Source: an uncultured Clostridia bacterium
GTDB lineage: Bacteria; Bacillota; Clostridia; Christensenellales; Borkfalkiaceae
DNA length: 64,000 bases
Assembly: GCA_944343275.1 (NCBI GenBank)
Contig: CALVMH010000004.1
Coordinates: forward strand, 40,577 to 104,576
Direction: 5' to 3'
Shown: positions 17,597 to 56,867 of the stretch, piece after piece
How positions within the stretch are numbered: the first letter of the stretch is position 1
How the letters are laid out: every line of letters starts with the position of its first letter
Translations under genes and position numbers: made by a program
The notes under the pieces: model-generated
Database searches by the model: none
The model's input: the letters and a program-made list of their open reading frames with translations, nothing else
Told to the model about the DNA's origin: nothing

Positions 17597-17621
17597 CGGG
17601 AGACCCCGTAAGACGATAAAA

Positions 17622-17651
17622 GGATGCACAGGCAGGGCGCATCCTTTTTTT
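17622..17651 (+). terminator. Rho-independent terminator after the SGNH hydrolase gene
   Basis: GGATGC (17622-17627) pairs with GCATCC (17639-17644), followed by seven T. Confidence 0.88.
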
Positions 17652-17665
17652 GTGCGGAAAAATGC

Positions 17666-17694
17666 TTGACAAATATACCCCCATGGGGTATAAT
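17666..17694 (+). promoter_or_regulatory. csoR-copA promoter with embedded CsoR operator
   Basis: TTGACA (17666-17671), 17 nt, TATAAT (17689-17694). The perfect inverted repeat TATACCCC-CAT-GGGGTATA (17674-17692) fills the spacer and runs into the -10. It matches the C/G-tract operators known for copper-sensing CsoR, so copper would relieve repression of csoR and copA together. Confidence 0.9.
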
Positions 17695-17722
17695 ACAGGA
17701 AATTCGGAAAACGGAGAGGAAC

Positions 17723-18028
17723 ATGAAAGGGTGTGAACGCTGCATGGAGCAGTACAAGAATACGCCGCGCGATGCGGCGCAGGTGAAGGGGCTTGTCGCC
17801 CGCCTCAACCGCATTGCGGGGCAGGTCGCGGGGCTGAAAAAGATGATCGAGGACAACCGCTATTGCGGCGAGGTGCTCGTGCAGGTCTCCGCCGTGGAGA
17901 GCGCCGTGCGCGCGTTCGGGTATCTCGTGCTGGAAGATCACATGAACACCTGCGTGGCGGAAAAGCTGCGCGCGGGGGACGGGGAGATCGTGCATGAGAC
18001 GGTGGAACTCATCAAAAAACTCAATTGA
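17723..18028 (+). CDS. csoR: Copper-sensing repressor CsoR
   Basis: A 101-residue all-helical DNA-binding repressor (DUF156 family) that releases DNA on binding Cu(I). The copper ligands Cys-His-Cys are present: the Cys of NRYCGEV near residue 48, and His and Cys of DHMNTC near residues 73-77. The Arg-rich RLNRIAGQVAGLKKMIED helix is typical. The start at 17723 follows GGAGAGGAAC and sits behind the operator promoter; the longer open frame upstream crosses the operator and is not used. copA begins 37 nt downstream, forming a self-regulated copper unit. Confidence 0.95.
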   Translation: MKGCERCMEQYKNTPRDAAQVKGLVARLNRIAGQVAGLKKMIEDNRYCGEVLVQVSAVESAVRAFGYLVLEDHMNTCVAEKLRAGDGEIVHETVELIKKLN

Positions 18029-18065
18029 CCGCAGCCGTCCGGAGGGGGCTGCAAAAGGAGCGGTG

Positions 18066-20507
18066 ATGAAAAAGAAATATTCCGTGACGGGCATGACGTG
18101 CGCGGCGTGTTCCGCAGGGATCGAGCGCGCCGTCGGAAAGATGCGGGGCGTCGAGGGCTGCGCTGTCTCCCTCATGGGGGAGAGCATGGAGGTCTCCTTC
18201 GATGAAGAGATCGTGTCGGATGCCGACATCAAACGGGCGGTGGAGGGGCTGGGCTACGGCGCCTATGACTACGGGAACGTTCCCGCCGTCCGCAAAAAGG
18301 TGTGGACGCTCGGACTGCGCTTTCTCATATCGCTCGTTCTGCTGTTGCCCGAAATGTATTTTGCGATGGGGCACATGCTGCACATCCCCGTTCCGCACGG
18401 GTGGCTCAACTACGGATTTCAGACGGGGCTGACGCTTGCCATCCTCGCCGTCAATTATCCCTTCTTTACAAGCGGGGTGCGCGCCGCCGTAAAGGGCGTT
18501 CCCAACATGGACACCCTTGTCACGCTGGGCGCAGCCGTTTCCTTTGTGTACAGCCTCGTCATGGCGATCCTCGACCCCGCAATCCCCACGCTCTTTTTTG
18601 AATCGGCGGCGATGATCGTCACCCTCGTCACCCTCGGCAAGTGGCTGGAAGACAAGAGCAAGCGCCGCACGGGGCGGGAGATCGAAAAACTCCGCCGCCT
18701 TGCGCCCGATACCGTCACCGTCGAGCGGGAGGGGAAGGAAGAAAAGATCGCGCTTGCGGACGTGGCGGCGGGGGATACGCTCGTCGTCAAACAGGGCGAA
18801 TCCGTCGCCGTGGACGGGGTCGTGACCGAGGGGCACGCCTTCGTCGATCAGTCGGCGGTCACGGGCGAGAGCCTTCCCGTGGAACTGTCCGCGGGCAGCC
18901 GGGCCGTGAGCGCGTCGCTCGTGACGGGCGGGTACCTGAAAATCAGGGCGGAAAAGGTGGGGGAAGATACCATGCTCTCTTCCATTATCCGCATGGTGCG
19001 CGAGGCGGGCGCGAGCAAGGCGCCCATTCAGAAACTTGCCGATAAGATCGCGGCTATTTTCGTTCCCGCGGTGCTCTCCGTCGCGCTCGTCACCTTTCTT
19101 GCGTGGCTGTTCGCCACGTGGGACGTCTCGGCGGCGTTCAACTTCGGCGTGAGCGTCATCGTGATCTCCTGCCCGTGCGCCTTAGGGCTTGCAACGCCCG
19201 TCGCCGTTATGGCGGCAACGGGGCGGGGCGCGAGCCTCGGTGTGCTCGTCAAGAGCGCGGAGGCATTGCAGCGCGCCGCCGACGTGGGCACCGTCCTGCT
19301 CGATAAGACGGCGACCATCACGGAGGGGAAGCCGCGCGTCGTGTTCTTCGAGGCGTACGGCGACGAAGCAAAATCAAAGCGCATCGCCGCCGCGGTGGAG
19401 CGCAAACTCAACCATCCGCTTGCGCAGTGCATCGCGGAGTACTGCGGCGAGGGCGGCGAAGCGCAGGGGGTGGAGTACGTCGTCGGGCAGGGCGCGCGAG
19501 GCGAGGTGGACGGCAGGACGTACTTTCTGGGCAACGACCGCATGATGGCGGAGCACGGGCTGTTTCCGGACGAGCGAAAGGCACAGTTCGGGCGGCTCTC
19601 CGCGGAGGGGAAAACGGTGCTCTTCCTTGCAAATGAGGAGAAGATCCTCGCAACGTTCGCGCTTGCAGATACGCTCAAAGCGGGGAGCAAAGAGGCGGTT
19701 GCCGCGCTCAGAGACCTCGGCATGACGGCGTACATGCTTACGGGCGACAACGCCGCCTGCGCGCGGTATATCGCGGAGAGCGCGGGCATCCCCTCGGACA
19801 TGGTATACGCGGAAGTGCTCCCCGAAGATAAGCTGACCTACGTGAAGGAGCATAAGGCGCGCAACGCGCAGCTCCGCGGGAAGGCAAGAAAGGGGGTCGC
19901 GATGATTGGCGACGGCATCAACGATTCCCCCGCGCTCAAAGAGGCGGACGTGGGCATTGCCATGGGCAACGGCACGGACGTGGCGATCGAGAGCGCGGAC
20001 GTCGTGCTCATGGGTGGTGATCTTTCCGCCGCGCCCCGCGCGTTCGCCTTGGCGCGCCGCACCATGCGCATCATCAAAGAGAATTTGTTCTGGGCGTTTT
20101 TCTACAACGTCATCTGCATTCCGTTGGCGGCGGGGTGCTTCGCGTGGGCGGACGTTATGCTCAACCCGATGATCGCGGCGTTGGCGATGAGCTGTTCCTC
20201 CCTCTTTGTGGTGGGAAACGCGCTGCGGCTCACCGTGTTCTTGCGTAAAAAAACAGCCGTTTTGCAGACAGCGGACGGCGCGGAAGGAGGAACAAAAATG
20301 AAACGGGAACTCAAAGTGGAAGGCATGATGTGCATGCACTGCGTGAAGCACGTCACGGACGCGCTGAACGCCGTGGAGGGCGTGGAAAAGACGGAAGTCG
20401 ACCTCAAAAAGAAGCGCGCCGTCGTCACGCTCGCTGCCCCTGTCTCCGACGATGCGCTCGTTGCCGCCGTCAAAGAGGCGGGCTACGAAGCAGCCGTCAG
20501 GGGCTGA
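18066..20507 (+). CDS. copA: Copper-exporting P-type ATPase with N- and C-terminal heavy-metal domains
   Basis: An 813-residue PIB-1 ATPase that pumps Cu(I) out across the membrane. The N-terminal HMA domain has GMTCAAC. Membrane helices follow, with TGES in the actuator, the CPC metal site (ISCPCALGLATP, near 368), the HP motif LNHPLAQ, GDN, and GDGINDSPAL. The phosphorylation loop reads DKTATIT from Asp413 instead of the near-universal DKTGT. After the last membrane helices a 20-residue linker leads into a second HMA domain (residues 745-813, MMCMHC) that has its own ribosome site and ATG (see separate entry). The start at 18066 follows AAAGGAGCGGTG. It is co-regulated with csoR. Confidence 0.94.
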   Translation: MKKKYSVTGMTCAACSAGIERAVGKMRGVEGCAVSLMGESMEVSFDEEIVSDADIKRAVEGLGYGAYDYGNVPAVRKKVWTLGLRFLISLVLLLPEMYFAMGHMLHIPVPHGWLNYGFQTGLTLAILAVNYPFFTSGVRAAVKGVPNMDTLVTLGAAVSFVYSLVMAILDPAIPTLFFESAAMIVTLVTLGKWLEDKSKRRTGREIEKLRRLAPDTVTVEREGKEEKIALADVAAGDTLVVKQGESVAVDGVVTEGHAFVDQSAVTGESLPVELSAGSRAVSASLVTGGYLKIRAEKVGEDTMLSSIIRMVREAGASKAPIQKLADKIAAIFVPAVLSVALVTFLAWLFATWDVSAAFNFGVSVIVISCPCALGLATPVAVMAATGRGASLGVLVKSAEALQRAADVGTVLLDKTATITEGKPRVVFFEAYGDEAKSKRIAAAVERKLNHPLAQCIAEYCGEGGEAQGVEYVVGQGARGEVDGRTYFLGNDRMMAEHGLFPDERKAQFGRLSAEGKTVLFLANEEKILATFALADTLKAGSKEAVAALRDLGMTAYMLTGDNAACARYIAESAGIPSDMVYAEVLPEDKLTYVKEHKARNAQLRGKARKGVAMIGDGINDSPALKEADVGIAMGNGTDVAIESADVVLMGGDLSAAPRAFALARRTMRIIKENLFWAFFYNVICIPLAAGCFAWADVMLNPMIAALAMSCSSLFVVGNALRLTVFLRKKTAVLQTADGAEGGTKMKRELKVEGMMCMHCVKHVTDALNAVEGVEKTEVDLKKKRAVVTLAAPVSDDALVAAVKEAGYEAAVRG
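20284..20507 (+). CDS. Probable internal start: free CopZ-like copper chaperone from the 3' end of copA
   Basis: AAGGAGG (20284-20290) is followed after seven nucleotides by an in-frame ATG (20298). Translation from it would give a 69-residue protein starting KRELKVEGMMCMHC, the usual size and fold of CopZ chaperones that deliver Cu(I) to CopA. The same codons are the C-terminal domain of the pump, so the frame can make both. A perfect Shine-Dalgarno at a domain border inside a gene is unlikely by chance, but production of the short form is inferred. Compare E. coli copA, where frameshifting yields a chaperone from the N-terminal domain. Confidence 0.6.
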
Positions 20508-20552
20508 GCCGTTCGTCTTGTGCAACGGCGCATGCCGCGCAGGACATGATCC

Positions 20553-20568
20553 GTCGGATATTTCCGAC
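20553..20568. promoter_or_regulatory. Inverted repeat upstream of the ArsR gene
   Basis: GTCGGA-TATT-TCCGAC lies 81 nt before the ArsR ATG. It may be an operator; a second palindrome, CCTTTTTGCAAAAAGG, abuts the ribosome site. No convincing -35/-10 pair was found. Confidence 0.3.
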
Positions 20569-20648
20569 AAAATGCGCCCCGTTCCGCCACATCTTCCATG
20601 CGTGCGCAGATAAGCAGATGTTATCCTTTTTGCAAAAAGGAGGAAGGC

Positions 20649-20984
20649 ATGCAGACGCTTTTATTGGACAGACGCACGCAGGATATGATCGAAGGGTACG
20701 TCCCCGAAGGGGAGGTGCTCTCCTCGCTCGTACGGTTTTTTTCCATCTTTGCGGACGGAACGCGGCTGCGCATCCTGTCCGCGCTCGCCATCTCCGAGAT
20801 GTGCGTGACGGACATCTCGCGCGTGCTGGACATCAACCAGACGACGGTCAGCCATCAGCTGCGGTTTCTGAAGGATGCGGGCATGGTGCGCTATCTGCGC
20901 CACGGCAAGATCATCTTTTATTCGCTCTCCGACGAGACCGTCAACGACGTCCTGCTGAAAGGCGTGGAATTTTTGGGCTATTGA
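20649..20984 (+). CDS. ArsR/SmtB-family transcriptional regulator
   Basis: A 111-residue winged-helix repressor. The core is VRFFSIFADGTRLRILSALA, the recognition helix TDISRVLDINQTTVSHQLRFLKDAG, and the wing VRYLRHGKIIFYSL. The alpha-3 region has a single Cys (SEMCVTDIS) where metal-sensing members carry ELCVCDL, so a metal site of the classical type is not evident. The start at 20649 follows AAAGGAGGAAGGC. It stands alone between copA and uvrC and is closed by a strong terminator. Its target and ligand are unknown; proximity to the copper genes is suggestive only. Confidence 0.9.
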   Translation: MQTLLLDRRTQDMIEGYVPEGEVLSSLVRFFSIFADGTRLRILSALAISEMCVTDISRVLDINQTTVSHQLRFLKDAGMVRYLRHGKIIFYSLSDETVNDVLLKGVEFLGY

Positions 20985-20999
20985 AGGCGTCAGGGCGCG

Positions 21000-21041
21000 C
21001 CGCGGGGCGGACGGGACTTCCCGTCCGCCCCGCGGCTTTTT
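21000..21041 (+). terminator. Rho-independent terminator after the ArsR gene
   Basis: A perfect 16-bp stem (21000-21015 with 21020-21035), a 4-nt loop ACTT and five T. Confidence 0.95.
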
Positions 21042-21053
21042 GCCGTCAATCGC

Positions 21054-21082
21054 TTGAAAATTGCGGGCAAAGCGTGTATAAT
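21054..21082 (+). promoter_or_regulatory. uvrC promoter, leaderless geometry
   Basis: TTGAAA (21054-21059), 17 nt, TATAAT (21077-21082), then six nucleotides to the ATG of uvrC. Confidence 0.85.
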
Positions 21083-21088
21083 AGAGAT

Positions 21089-22903
21089 ATGGGCGAGAGC
21101 GTCATCCGTGAAAAACTCAAACTGCTGCCCGATGCTCCCGGCGTCTACATCATGCTGGATGCGGACGGCGCGGTCATCTATGTGGGCAAGGCGCGCGTTC
21201 TCAAAAACCGTGTGCGGCAATACTTTCATGCGTCGCTCAAATCCCCCAAGGTGCAGGCGATGGTGGAGAACATTGCCGATTTTTCCTATGTCGTCACGCC
21301 GAGCGAGGTGGACGCGCTCTCCCTTGAAAACACCTACATCAAAAAGTACAAGCCCAAGTACAACATCCTGTTGAAGGACGATAAGACCTATCCCTACATC
21401 AAGGTGACCACGCGGGAGGCGTTCCCCCGCATCCTCATCACGCGCAGGGTAAAGCGCGGGGACGGGAAGTACTTCGGTCCCTTCATGGCGGGGACTTCGG
21501 CAAAGGACATCGTGGACGTCGCCGCCAAGGTGTATCGCGTGCGCACATGTTCCGTGAAGATCGGGGACCGGGCGCAAAAGCCCTGCCTCGAATATCACCT
21601 CGGTCGGTGCGGCGCGCCCTGCGCACACTGCATTTCCGAGCGGGACTATGCCGTGCAGGTCGAACGGGCGCTTGCCTTTTTGGGGGGCGACTACGAAGAG
21701 GCGGCCGCCATGCTTGCGGAAAAGATGGCGGTATTTGCCGCGCGGGAGGAGTTCGAGCTTGCCCTCGAATACCGCAACAGGATCGAGATGCTCTCCCGCC
21801 TCGGCGAGAAGCGCATCACGGCAATGCCGCGCGACGTGGATGCCGACGTCTGGGCATTTGAGACCAACGGGCTGTACGCCGCGGCGAGCATGCTCATAAC
21901 GCGCGGCGGCATCATGCAGGGTAGCCGCAGTTTTTCCCTCGATGCGGGGGCGGGAGAACGGGGGGAAAACTTCCTGTCCTTCCTCACGCAGTACTATTCC
22001 GCGCACGAACTTCCGCATGAGATCGTCTGCGACGAGCCCTTCGACGAGGCGCTCTTTGCGGGGTATGCCGAGCGCAGGGCGGGCAGAAAGGTGACGATCA
22101 CCCGTCCCAAATTCGGCGTCCGCCGCGAGCTGCTCGACATGGCGGCGGGGAACGTCAAAGAATATCTTGAAAAATCCGTTTCCGCCATCGCGCACAAGAA
22201 CGATATGACGACGGGCGCCTGCGAGCGTCTGAAAACGCTGCTGCACCTTACGCGCTATCCCAAGCGCATGGAATGTTACGATATCTCCAATATATCGGGT
22301 GTGGACAAGGTGGGCAGCATGGTGGTGTTCACGGACGGCGAGGCGGACAAGATGCTCTATCGCCGCTTCCGCATCAGGACGGTGGAAGGCGCAAACGATT
22401 TTGCTTCGCTGCAAGAGGCGCTGCGCCGCCGCCTTGCAAAGCTCGGAACGGAGGAAGAGGAGCGCTTTGCGCGGCCGCAGCTCATCGTCATCGACGGCGG
22501 CAGGGGGCAGCTCTCCGCCGTCAGGGAGATTTTCGAAGAGGCGGGCATTTCGGACATCGATCTCGTCGCCCTTGCCAAAAAAGAGGAAGAGGTGTACACC
22601 CTGTTCTCGGACGAGCCCGTCCGCATCGACAGGCGCGATTACGCCTTGAAGACGTTGCAGCGCATCCGCGACGAGGCGCACCGCTTCGCCGTCACCTATT
22701 TCCGCAGCCTGCATTCCAAGCGCAACCTTGCCTCCGTGCTCGACGAAATTGACGGGGTGGGGAAGGAAAAGCGCACGGCGCTCATGCGGGCATTCGGCGA
22801 CATCGACAAGATCATGCATGCGAGCGAGGCAGAACTTGCAGCGGTGGCAGGGATCGGCCCCGCGCTCGCCGCGCGCATCCGCGCGCATTTCGAGGCATTA
22901 TGA
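21089..22903 (+). CDS. uvrC: UvrABC system protein C (excinuclease subunit)
   Basis: A 604-residue subunit that makes both incisions around bulky DNA lesions. The N-terminal GIY-YIG nuclease domain is APGVYIMLDADGAVIYVGKA. The central UVR motif (MAVFAAREEFELALEYRN) binds UvrB. The RNase H-like second nuclease half includes MECYDISNISG and IDGGRGQLSAV. The C-terminal helix-hairpin-helix (VAGIGPALAARIRAHF) ends the protein. The ATG at 21089 lies six nucleotides after a consensus -10 and has no Shine-Dalgarno, so the mRNA is probably leaderless. It heads an operon with the HAD, hprK, U32 and mutS2 genes; its stop overlaps the next start (ATGA). Confidence 0.97.
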   Translation: MGESVIREKLKLLPDAPGVYIMLDADGAVIYVGKARVLKNRVRQYFHASLKSPKVQAMVENIADFSYVVTPSEVDALSLENTYIKKYKPKYNILLKDDKTYPYIKVTTREAFPRILITRRVKRGDGKYFGPFMAGTSAKDIVDVAAKVYRVRTCSVKIGDRAQKPCLEYHLGRCGAPCAHCISERDYAVQVERALAFLGGDYEEAAAMLAEKMAVFAAREEFELALEYRNRIEMLSRLGEKRITAMPRDVDADVWAFETNGLYAAASMLITRGGIMQGSRSFSLDAGAGERGENFLSFLTQYYSAHELPHEIVCDEPFDEALFAGYAERRAGRKVTITRPKFGVRRELLDMAAGNVKEYLEKSVSAIAHKNDMTTGACERLKTLLHLTRYPKRMECYDISNISGVDKVGSMVVFTDGEADKMLYRRFRIRTVEGANDFASLQEALRRRLAKLGTEEEERFARPQLIVIDGGRGQLSAVREIFEEAGISDIDLVALAKKEEEVYTLFSDEPVRIDRRDYALKTLQRIRDEAHRFAVTYFRSLHSKRNLASVLDEIDGVGKEKRTALMRAFGDIDKIMHASEAELAAVAGIGPALAARIRAHFEAL

Positions 22904-55370: not shown

Positions 55371-56867
55371 ATGCTTTTTTACAGCACGAGAGGGGAAGAG
55401 AAGGTAACGGGCGCGCAGGCGATCGTTGAAGGCATCGCGCGTGACGGCGGTCTGTTCGTGCCGTCCGTCTTCCCGCAGGTCTCGAAGGAGGAATTGGAGC
55501 GCATGTTCGGCATGGATTATCCCGAACGCGCCGCGTTCATCCTGCATAAATATCTCGACGAATACGACGAGGAGGAGCTGCTTGCCGCCCTGAGGAAGGC
55601 ATACGCGCAGTTCGAGGGGGGCGACGCCGCGCCGCTCGTGCGCGTGGAGAACGGGATGTACATGCTCGAACTCTTCCACGGACCGACCTGCGCCTTCAAG
55701 GATATGGCGCTCACCGTTCTTCCCTATCTGTTGCGGAAGGGATGCGATATCTGCGGCATCAAGGAACAGGTGCTCATCCTCGTCGCCACCAGCGGCGATA
55801 CGGGCAAGGCGGCGCTCGAAGGGTTTAAGGATGCGGACGGCATCAAGATCATGGTGTTCTATCCCGACGACGGCGTCTCCAAGATGCAGAAATTGCAGAT
55901 GTGCACGCAGGAGGGGAGCAATGTGAACGTCGTCGCCGTCAAAGGGAACTTTGACGACTGTCAGACGGGCGTCAAGAAAATTTTCACGTCCGAAGCGTGC
56001 GCCGAACGGCTGCTCGCCAAGGGCTATCGCCTCTCGTCCGCCAACTCCATCAACTTCGGGCGCCTCGCGCCGCAGATCTGCTATTATTTCTCGGCGTACT
56101 GCGACCTTGTCACGTCCGACCAGATCAAGCCCGGGGACAAGGTCAATTTCACCGTTCCCACGGGCAACTTCGGGAATATCCTCGCGGGCTATTATGCCAA
56201 ACAAATGGGGTTGCCCGTCGGTACGCTCGTGTGCGCGTCCAATACCAACAATGTCCTGACGGATTTCTTTGCCCGCGGGACTTACGACAGCAAGCGCCCC
56301 TTTTATAAGACGATGTCCCCCTCCATGGACATTCTCGTCTCTTCCAACCTGGAACGCCTCGTCTTCGAGCTTTCGGGACGGGACGCGGCGCTCACCAAGG
56401 AACGCATGGCGTCCCTTGCGGCGACGGGGCGCTATTCCGTCCGCGCGGAAGAACTGCAAAAAATGCGCGCGGAGTTCTTTGCGGCGTATGCGAGCGAGAA
56501 CGATACGGTGGACTGTATCTACGAATTTTTCGAGGAATACGGCTACCCCATGGATACGCACACGGGCGTCGCCATGCATGTCGCGCAGCGGTATGAGGAG
56601 CAGCTCAAAAAGGAGGATTCCAAGGCGGAGCTGCCGCCCATGGTGGTGGTCTCCACGGCAAGTCCCTATAAGTTTCCGCAGGCGGTCTATTATGCGCTGA
56701 CGGGTAACGACGTCAAGGACAGTTTCAAGGGCATCAAGCGCATCAATTTGTTGACGGCGATGAAGGTCCCCGAATCGCTCAAAGCCATCCGCTACAAGCC
56801 CATCCTCTTCAAACAGTCGGTAACGCCCGACAAGATGTTCGACGAAGTGGAAAAATTCATCGGCTGA
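55371..56867 (+). CDS. thrC: Threonine synthase
   Basis: A 498-residue PLP enzyme converting O-phosphohomoserine to threonine. The cofactor Lys lies in FHGPTCAFKDMAL near residue 112. The phosphate-binding loop is in VATSGDTGKAALEGF, and VPTGNFGNILAGYYAKQMG is the family signature. The start LFYSTRG and the length fit the bacterial type. The ribosome site is AGGGAGGCAGT. No other threonine genes are in the window. Confidence 0.96.
   Translation: MLFYSTRGEEKVTGAQAIVEGIARDGGLFVPSVFPQVSKEELERMFGMDYPERAAFILHKYLDEYDEEELLAALRKAYAQFEGGDAAPLVRVENGMYMLELFHGPTCAFKDMALTVLPYLLRKGCDICGIKEQVLILVATSGDTGKAALEGFKDADGIKIMVFYPDDGVSKMQKLQMCTQEGSNVNVVAVKGNFDDCQTGVKKIFTSEACAERLLAKGYRLSSANSINFGRLAPQICYYFSAYCDLVTSDQIKPGDKVNFTVPTGNFGNILAGYYAKQMGLPVGTLVCASNTNNVLTDFFARGTYDSKRPFYKTMSPSMDILVSSNLERLVFELSGRDAALTKERMASLAATGRYSVRAEELQKMRAEFFAAYASENDTVDCIYEFFEEYGYPMDTHTGVAMHVAQRYEEQLKKEDSKAELPPMVVVSTASPYKFPQAVYYALTGNDVKDSFKGIKRINLLTAMKVPESLKAIRYKPILFKQSVTPDKMFDEVEKFIG

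Follow-up and report, generated by a model that had tools for sequence, protein, structure and literature searches.

Copper chaperones are typically encoded by separate genes, and in E. coli a single gene, copA, gives both a pump and a chaperone by frameshifting (PMC10187127). The window analyzed here, a whole stretch of 64,000 nucleotides from an uncultured Clostridia bacterium, raises the question of whether one copper-pump gene can also yield a free CopZ-like chaperone from its 3′ end, without any change of frame. From the sequence comparisons described below we regard it as highly likely that a copZ is nested in frame in the 3′ end of this copA and that a short form is made from it by internal initiation, the protein itself being inferred.

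The genome to which the window belongs is a 1.98-Mb assembly of 92 contigs that is 92% complete. In the window, a csoR, a copA, and an ArsR-type gene follow one another in a row, and all features of this region lie on the + strand. A consensus scan of positions 17600–21100 returned just one perfect promoter-like match, TTGACA-17-TATAAT at 17666..17694, which we assign to the operon. Between its hexamers, and overlapping the second (−10), is a palindrome, TATACCCC-N3-GGGGTATA (17674..17692), recognized from sequence only, which we take to be the likely CsoR operator, a putative function. The csoR-like gene encodes a repressor of 101 amino acids (17723..18028; PF02583, 7.8e-27). It is followed by copA (18066..20507), whose 813-amino acid product consists of an N-terminal HMA domain (18078..18257, genome coordinates G000:C4:58654-58833, motif CAAC), a Cu P1B-type pump, and a C-terminal HMA domain, and which passes the CopA profile TIGR01511 with 547 bits against a cut-off of 397. 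The best start for copA is the ATG at 18066, after AAAAGGAG, in preference to the earliest one available in the open frame, at 17994. The CsoR-like neighbor agrees with copper as the metal transported by the predicted CopA, transport itself being inferred. Downstream are an ArsR/SmtB-type regulator of 111 amino acids (20649..20984) and, 3′ of it, a strong terminator-like hairpin (20999..21036), and from this layout we infer that csoR, copA, and arsR share one mRNA.

An earlier note on this DNA had claimed that copA ends in a second heavy-metal domain with the motif MMCMHC, and this is borne out by the metal motif GMMCMHC (20322..20342), of the CxHC type, in the C-terminal HMA domain. Its description of the internal site is exact to the base: the Shine-Dalgarno (SD) sequence AAGGAGG (20284..20290) lies 7 nt ahead of an in-frame ATG (20298..20300), the proposed start of the nested copZ, from which 69 residues can be translated (20298..20507). 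The pairing of this SD with the anti-SD is worth −11.0 kcal/mol, compared with −7.2 for the SD of copA itself, −6.6 for csoR, and −10.9 for the ArsR gene. A 16S end with the anti-SD GGATCACCTCC was present in 10 of 61 genomes searched, 2 of them (G009 and G019) from the genus of the window, and was not found in the window's own incomplete genome. In the local fold the internal SD is only partly unpaired (0.11–0.58). The 49 longest nonoverlapping open reading frames of the window, which are not curated genes, contain 333 in-frame internal ATGs, of which 2 had an SD of −10.9 kcal/mol or stronger, namely those at 20298 and 55503. Taken alone, the signal at a single site could therefore have arisen by chance, with odds of roughly 1 in 330, and because of this the case rests on comparative data. 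The site at 55503 (SD −11.0) precedes an in-frame ATG early in a gene that we presume to be a threonine synthase; chance is its probable origin, and it serves as a warning that one SD proves little.

A CopA-like match was present in 78 of the 81 near relatives (E 1e-30); across the order, 208 of 247 sampled genomes had one (E 1e-120). A first set of 184 loci was assembled from these searches (8, then 29 new, 40 regions, 27 new, and 80 regions), mostly from best-scoring matches; in one round, matches with internal stops and lower-ranked matches were left out. Because best-scoring matches were sampled, the shares given below apply to pumps that resemble the window's and lean toward fused forms. 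Loci were selected by the peptide pattern of the pump, with no other use of the DNA. After removal of duplicates and of weak, low-identity (<38%), or cut-short pump matches, 174 nonredundant copA 3′ ends remained, 153 of them fused to a C-terminal HMA domain and 21 without one, including one cut by a contig end (L156). Throughout, a strong SD is one of −6 kcal/mol or better, and the strict interval for the start is an ATG 6 to 14 codons before the metal motif.

Within the order, an ATG stands 6 to 14 codons ahead of the GMxC metal motif in 135 of the 153 fused genes, and exactly 9 codons ahead in 118. A strong SD accompanies this ATG in 124 of 135 cases, as against 209 of 2,598 other in-frame ATGs in the pumps, 19 of 324 other ATGs in the tails, and 15.6 of 135 expected when the linker codons are permuted. 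The share of strong SDs peaks at this methionine, at 92%, and drops to 0–7% in both of our sets when the test site is moved 4 to 8 codons up- or downstream. Members of 22 families of the order carry fused genes, with pumps down to approximately 45% identical to the window's, and between 1 and 134 codons separate the methionine from the end of the pump match; the linkers differ greatly in length and sequence, and the SD keeps its spacing.

Beyond the order, a second set of 110 loci comprised the best 80 of the named-genome matches listed and 30 loci from a phylum search. Nine repeated the first set, leaving 101 new nonredundant loci, of which 99 are fused. The alignment behind both searches had the internal methionine in every row, which may favor sequences that carry it. 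A start is kept in 97 of the 99, as an ATG in 94 (83 with a strong SD and 11 with a weaker one) and as GTG or TTG with a strong SD in 3; one of the remaining 2 has a GTG with an SD of −5.0. Codon permutation predicts 9.9 strong SDs where 83 of 94 are seen, and the control value is 135 of 1,896 pump ATGs. In both sets, then, an SD and start codon are conserved beyond chance, which is what we required as evidence of internal initiation. Going by record titles, this second set is mostly Clostridia (57 loci) and reaches seven other classes. Start-bearing loci also occur in Negativicutes, Erysipelotrichia, Coriobacteriia, Spirochaetia, Elusimicrobia, Deferribacteres, and a bin placed in Myxococcota; those outside Bacillota and Coriobacteriia are bins, for which transfer or misbinning is possible. 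Cultured carriers with a strong site are Parablautia intestinalis (L219), Acetatifactor muris, and the Coriobacteriia Gordonibacter pamelaeae (L242) and Eggerthella sinensis, and Christensenella is a cultured carrier of a weaker one.

A conserved peptide could in principle carry these nucleotides along with it, and here the synonymous-codon null was weak on its own (median P 0.20; <0.05 in 16 of 135 genes) because Lys, Glu, and Gly codons are purine-rich; the codon permutation and positional profiles were added for this reason. The GGA core of the SD falls in codon phase 0, 1, or 2 in 60, 9, and 62 genes, respectively, and is missing in 4, so that the SD is read by turns as Lys-Gly-Asp/Glu (KGD/KGE), Lys-Glu-Glu (KEE), or Arg-Arg (RR). 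Where glycine codons occur in the SD region, they are GGA in 72 of 83 cases in the order, versus 1,241 of 8,001 in the pumps, and in 37 of 48 versus 206 of 1,098 in the second set. The start codon drifts while the SD stays, with GTG in L111, L137, L223, and L291 and TTG in L221. That the phases of the SD vary, that GTG and TTG occur, and that the linkers differ freely indicate that nucleotides, not a peptide, are being kept.

Of 18 genes of the order with no ATG in the strict interval, 5 have one at 15 codons (SD −8.0 to −11.3), 2 have a GTG (SD −12.2 and −8.0), and L146, which has two C-terminal HMA domains, has an ATG with an SD of −11.6 before the second, last one. L062 has an ATG inside the strict interval and no SD (−0.9) and was counted as lacking the site. 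The final tally for the order is 142 genes with a start and an SD-like site and 11 without, the SD being −6 or better in 132 and −4.4 to −5.9 in 10, which all have an ATG and include 3 members of the genus of Christensenella (L054, L132, and L134). This widening of the interval was chosen after the data had been seen, and the strict counts are the 135 and 124 given above. At 10 of the 11 genes without a start, no SD of −6 or better was found at the expected place; L183 lacks a start codon and yet has an SD-like sequence (−9.5) there. Fused relatives lacking the internal ribosome site had been named in the earlier note as grounds for abandoning its proposal, and the reverse is seen, with 142 of 153 and 97 of 99 genes keeping the start. 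Two in-frame C-terminal HMA domains were observed in L146, L161, and L140, and in the first two of these an SD and ATG precede the last domain.

A separate copZ-like gene lies directly downstream in 5 of the 11 genes without an internal start (L140, L151, L152, L159, and L183), each with an SD of its own (−9.5 to −11.6), the one at L140 being cut by the contig end. Among genes with the internal start, an extra downstream HMA was found in 1 of the 141 compared (L087; Fisher P 4e-6), the downstream sequence covered varying from 136 to 1,200 nt per gene. This association is confounded by phylogeny: the cases with a separate copZ are grouped together on the tree, and the 6 independent pairs available do not suffice for a test. 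In three of the pumps without a C-terminal HMA domain (L076, L120, and L138), the stop of the pump coincides with the start of a separate copZ. The gene thus exists side by side in separate, nested, and fused-plus-separate form.

The comparison with separate copZ genes that the earlier note had suggested gives a pattern, though a confounded one, for neighboring genes and is not clean at the scale of the genome. Of 20 stretches of free HMA compared, 13 came from six genomes without the internal start and 7 from genomes with it. Free CxHC frames with an SD were present in G058, G138, and G197, which lack the start, and also in G101 despite its internal start, so that the start does not cleanly predict the absence of any free copZ from a genome; for this reason only the adjacency of copZ was used as evidence. 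Five members of the window's genus (G039, G009, G002, G016, and G162) have a pump with no C-terminal HMA domain and only weak free HMA frames of 24–36 bits, which counts against a need for the chaperone. Pumps of the genus seen without this domain are L037, L041, L046, L068, and L084, whose genomes likewise offer no free HMA frames beyond weak ones.

The side-by-side occurrence of these forms also bears on an explanation in which nothing short is made. Overlapping copA/copZ operons may have been fused recently and repeatedly by indels, in which case the SD and ATG would be leftovers and only the fused protein would be produced. Split forms with copZ at the pump's stop do exist in the order, as just described, and if one A is removed from the run of seven at 20247..20253, the window's pump frame hits a TGA that overlaps the ATG. 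A leftover SD would decay, however, and for this reason we consider such a relic improbable: the SD persists at its spacing in varied codon phases, behind unlike linkers, across the 22 families and among pumps as little as about 45% identical to the window's.

The 69-amino acid frame spans a full HMA domain of beta-alpha-beta-beta-alpha-beta order (PF00403, 63.4 bits against a cut-off of 24.8), and a predicted model, based on 33 rows made up of the window and loci from the named-genome scan, has the complete ferredoxin-like fold from residue 2 onward (pLDDT 94). Profile and predicted model agree in giving the frame a complete HMA fold with MxCxxC, one of the marks asked of a CopZ. The general profile TIGR00003 is also passed (63.1 against 62), and the CopZ-specific cut-offs of NCBIfam are missed (NF047957, 79.4 of 85; NF033794, 72.8 of 95). 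In a fold comparison the model is near the CopZ of E. hirae and B. subtilis and equally near HMA domains of pumps, a search that fails to tell chaperones from pump domains. The metal motif of the C-terminal domain is CxHC in 123 of 129 genes, and that of the N-terminal domain is CAAC or CSAC in 120 of 129; free CopZ proteins characteristically carry CxHC. The window's genome gave just three HMA matches, two in CopA and one in an 86-amino acid frame adjoining a Zn/Cd-type pump, and no separate copZ was seen in this HMA search of the 92% complete assembly.

The layout around Zn/Cd-type pumps is itself variable. In G035 (L204) a small gene of its own encodes the N-terminal HMA; after its stop comes the pump, in the same frame and with a separate start. 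A like arrangement may exist in the window's genome (G000:C8:37199-39310; L002 and L202), with one stop inside the match and the HMA in the 86-amino acid frame, and in other genus members, for example G004 and G019, HMA and pump share one open frame.

The anatomy of the locus, the conservation of nucleotides, the complete domain (as predicted), and the presence of a separate downstream copZ mainly where the start is missing are established here, and the conservation of the site in fused relatives supports the nested chaperone made by internal initiation that the earlier note had put forward. Under this proposal, ribosomes starting at 18066 would make the full pump with its C-terminal HMA domain, and other ribosomes on the same mRNA would use the internal SD and the ATG at 20298 to produce, as a free protein of 69 residues, a CopZ-like Cu(I) chaperone, most likely by loading independently at the internal SD of the csoR-copA-arsR message. 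The CsoR-type promoter would drive both forms, which would then be induced jointly, the two ribosome sites determining their proportions. Production of the short form, its delivery of Cu(I) to the pump, and the coregulation of the two are inferences, with no expression data behind them.

A free chaperone could also arise from a short transcript begun at a promoter inside copA, or by cleavage, with internal initiation secondary or absent. There is precedent in the rpn genes, which have an in-gene transcription start plus an internal start (PMC10327210). On the + strand, however, the consensus scan, the only search made, found no promoter-like match inside copA or anywhere between 17694 and 21054, and cleavage would need neither an SD nor an ATG; we hold out very little expectation for either route. 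Less credible still is that the internal SD slows elongation, giving the membrane part time to insert ahead of synthesis of the last domain, without any initiation. Slower elongation at SD-like sequences within genes has been proposed, a point described as controversial in PMC5100845. Such a pause would leave unexplained the start codon at a fixed spacing, its replacement by GTG or TTG, the position that the site takes in L146 ahead of the last HMA domain, and the pump-to-methionine distances of 1 to 134 codons.

Slippage of ribosome or polymerase on the A7 run, giving a truncated pump and a coupled restart, can practically be set aside: a shift there would end the pump at the TGA overlapping the ATG, but at least seven A occur in just 27 of 135 linkers, the run is absent from the two closest relatives (L009 and L010), and the heptamer does not fit in frame the canonical slippery site X XXY YYZ. 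The earlier note had placed this run correctly, and the slippage it suggested finds no support; as a cause of the fusion or of the short form we reject it. A conserved slippery site with a stop in the alternative frame, as a CopA(Z)-type frameshift would call for, is not present, and judging from the sequences compared the conserved element is the SD with its start codon.

Internal initiation at a nested copZ may have a wider reach, and we lean toward this view with only modest assurance: nested copZ would be the prevailing chaperone route in much of Clostridia and, more sporadically, in Coriobacteriia, Negativicutes, Spirochaetes, and other groups, a dual-coding gene of old standing, retained in fused and free form, interconverting with separate copZ, and missed since annotation gives one product per frame, with tethered and free copies fixing the ratio of carrier to pump. 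If true, this would explain why genomes like the window's seem to lack copZ and would extend the phenomenon to cultured bacteria. It would also provide a clean example, open to testing, of internal initiation conserved after the linkers have ceased to be similar and, if the protein is made, a small free copper carrier overlooked by gene annotation.

Among known systems, the CopA of A. fulgidus is an example of a P1B ATPase with a C-terminal metal-binding domain, and it shares with the window's pump an HMA domain after the last transmembrane helix. The separate CopZ proteins of Bacillota (E. hirae, 1cpz; B. subtilis, 2qif) are like the nested frame in size and fold, and the MxCxxC motif and an operon with copA are common to both. 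They differ in having genes of their own, whereas the window's frame is joined to the pump, with only its start separate, and scores below the NCBIfam CopZ cut-offs. The closest parallel is E. coli copA, the CopA(Z) system, in which the chaperone reportedly comes from programmed frameshifting (Meydan 2017, Drees 2017). There too a single copper-pump gene leads to a pump and a free HMA chaperone, but in E. coli it is the N-terminal domain that is released, by a frameshift, and here it would be the C-terminal domain, by a same-frame internal start; if true, the two are mirror images, with two lineages using opposite ends of the gene and different translational tricks. Internal in-frame starts yield separate small proteins in the rpn toxin-antitoxin genes and in cas10d/cas11d, where a part of the protein is likewise translated separately and the short and long forms cooperate (PMC10327210); those proteins are unrelated to the present ones, which would pair a metal carrier with its own client pump. 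Searches of the open-access literature showed nothing on internal initiation within copA, most subscription papers lying outside our coverage. That one gene can supply both pump and chaperone is known for E. coli, and what would be new here is the C-terminal version by internal initiation.
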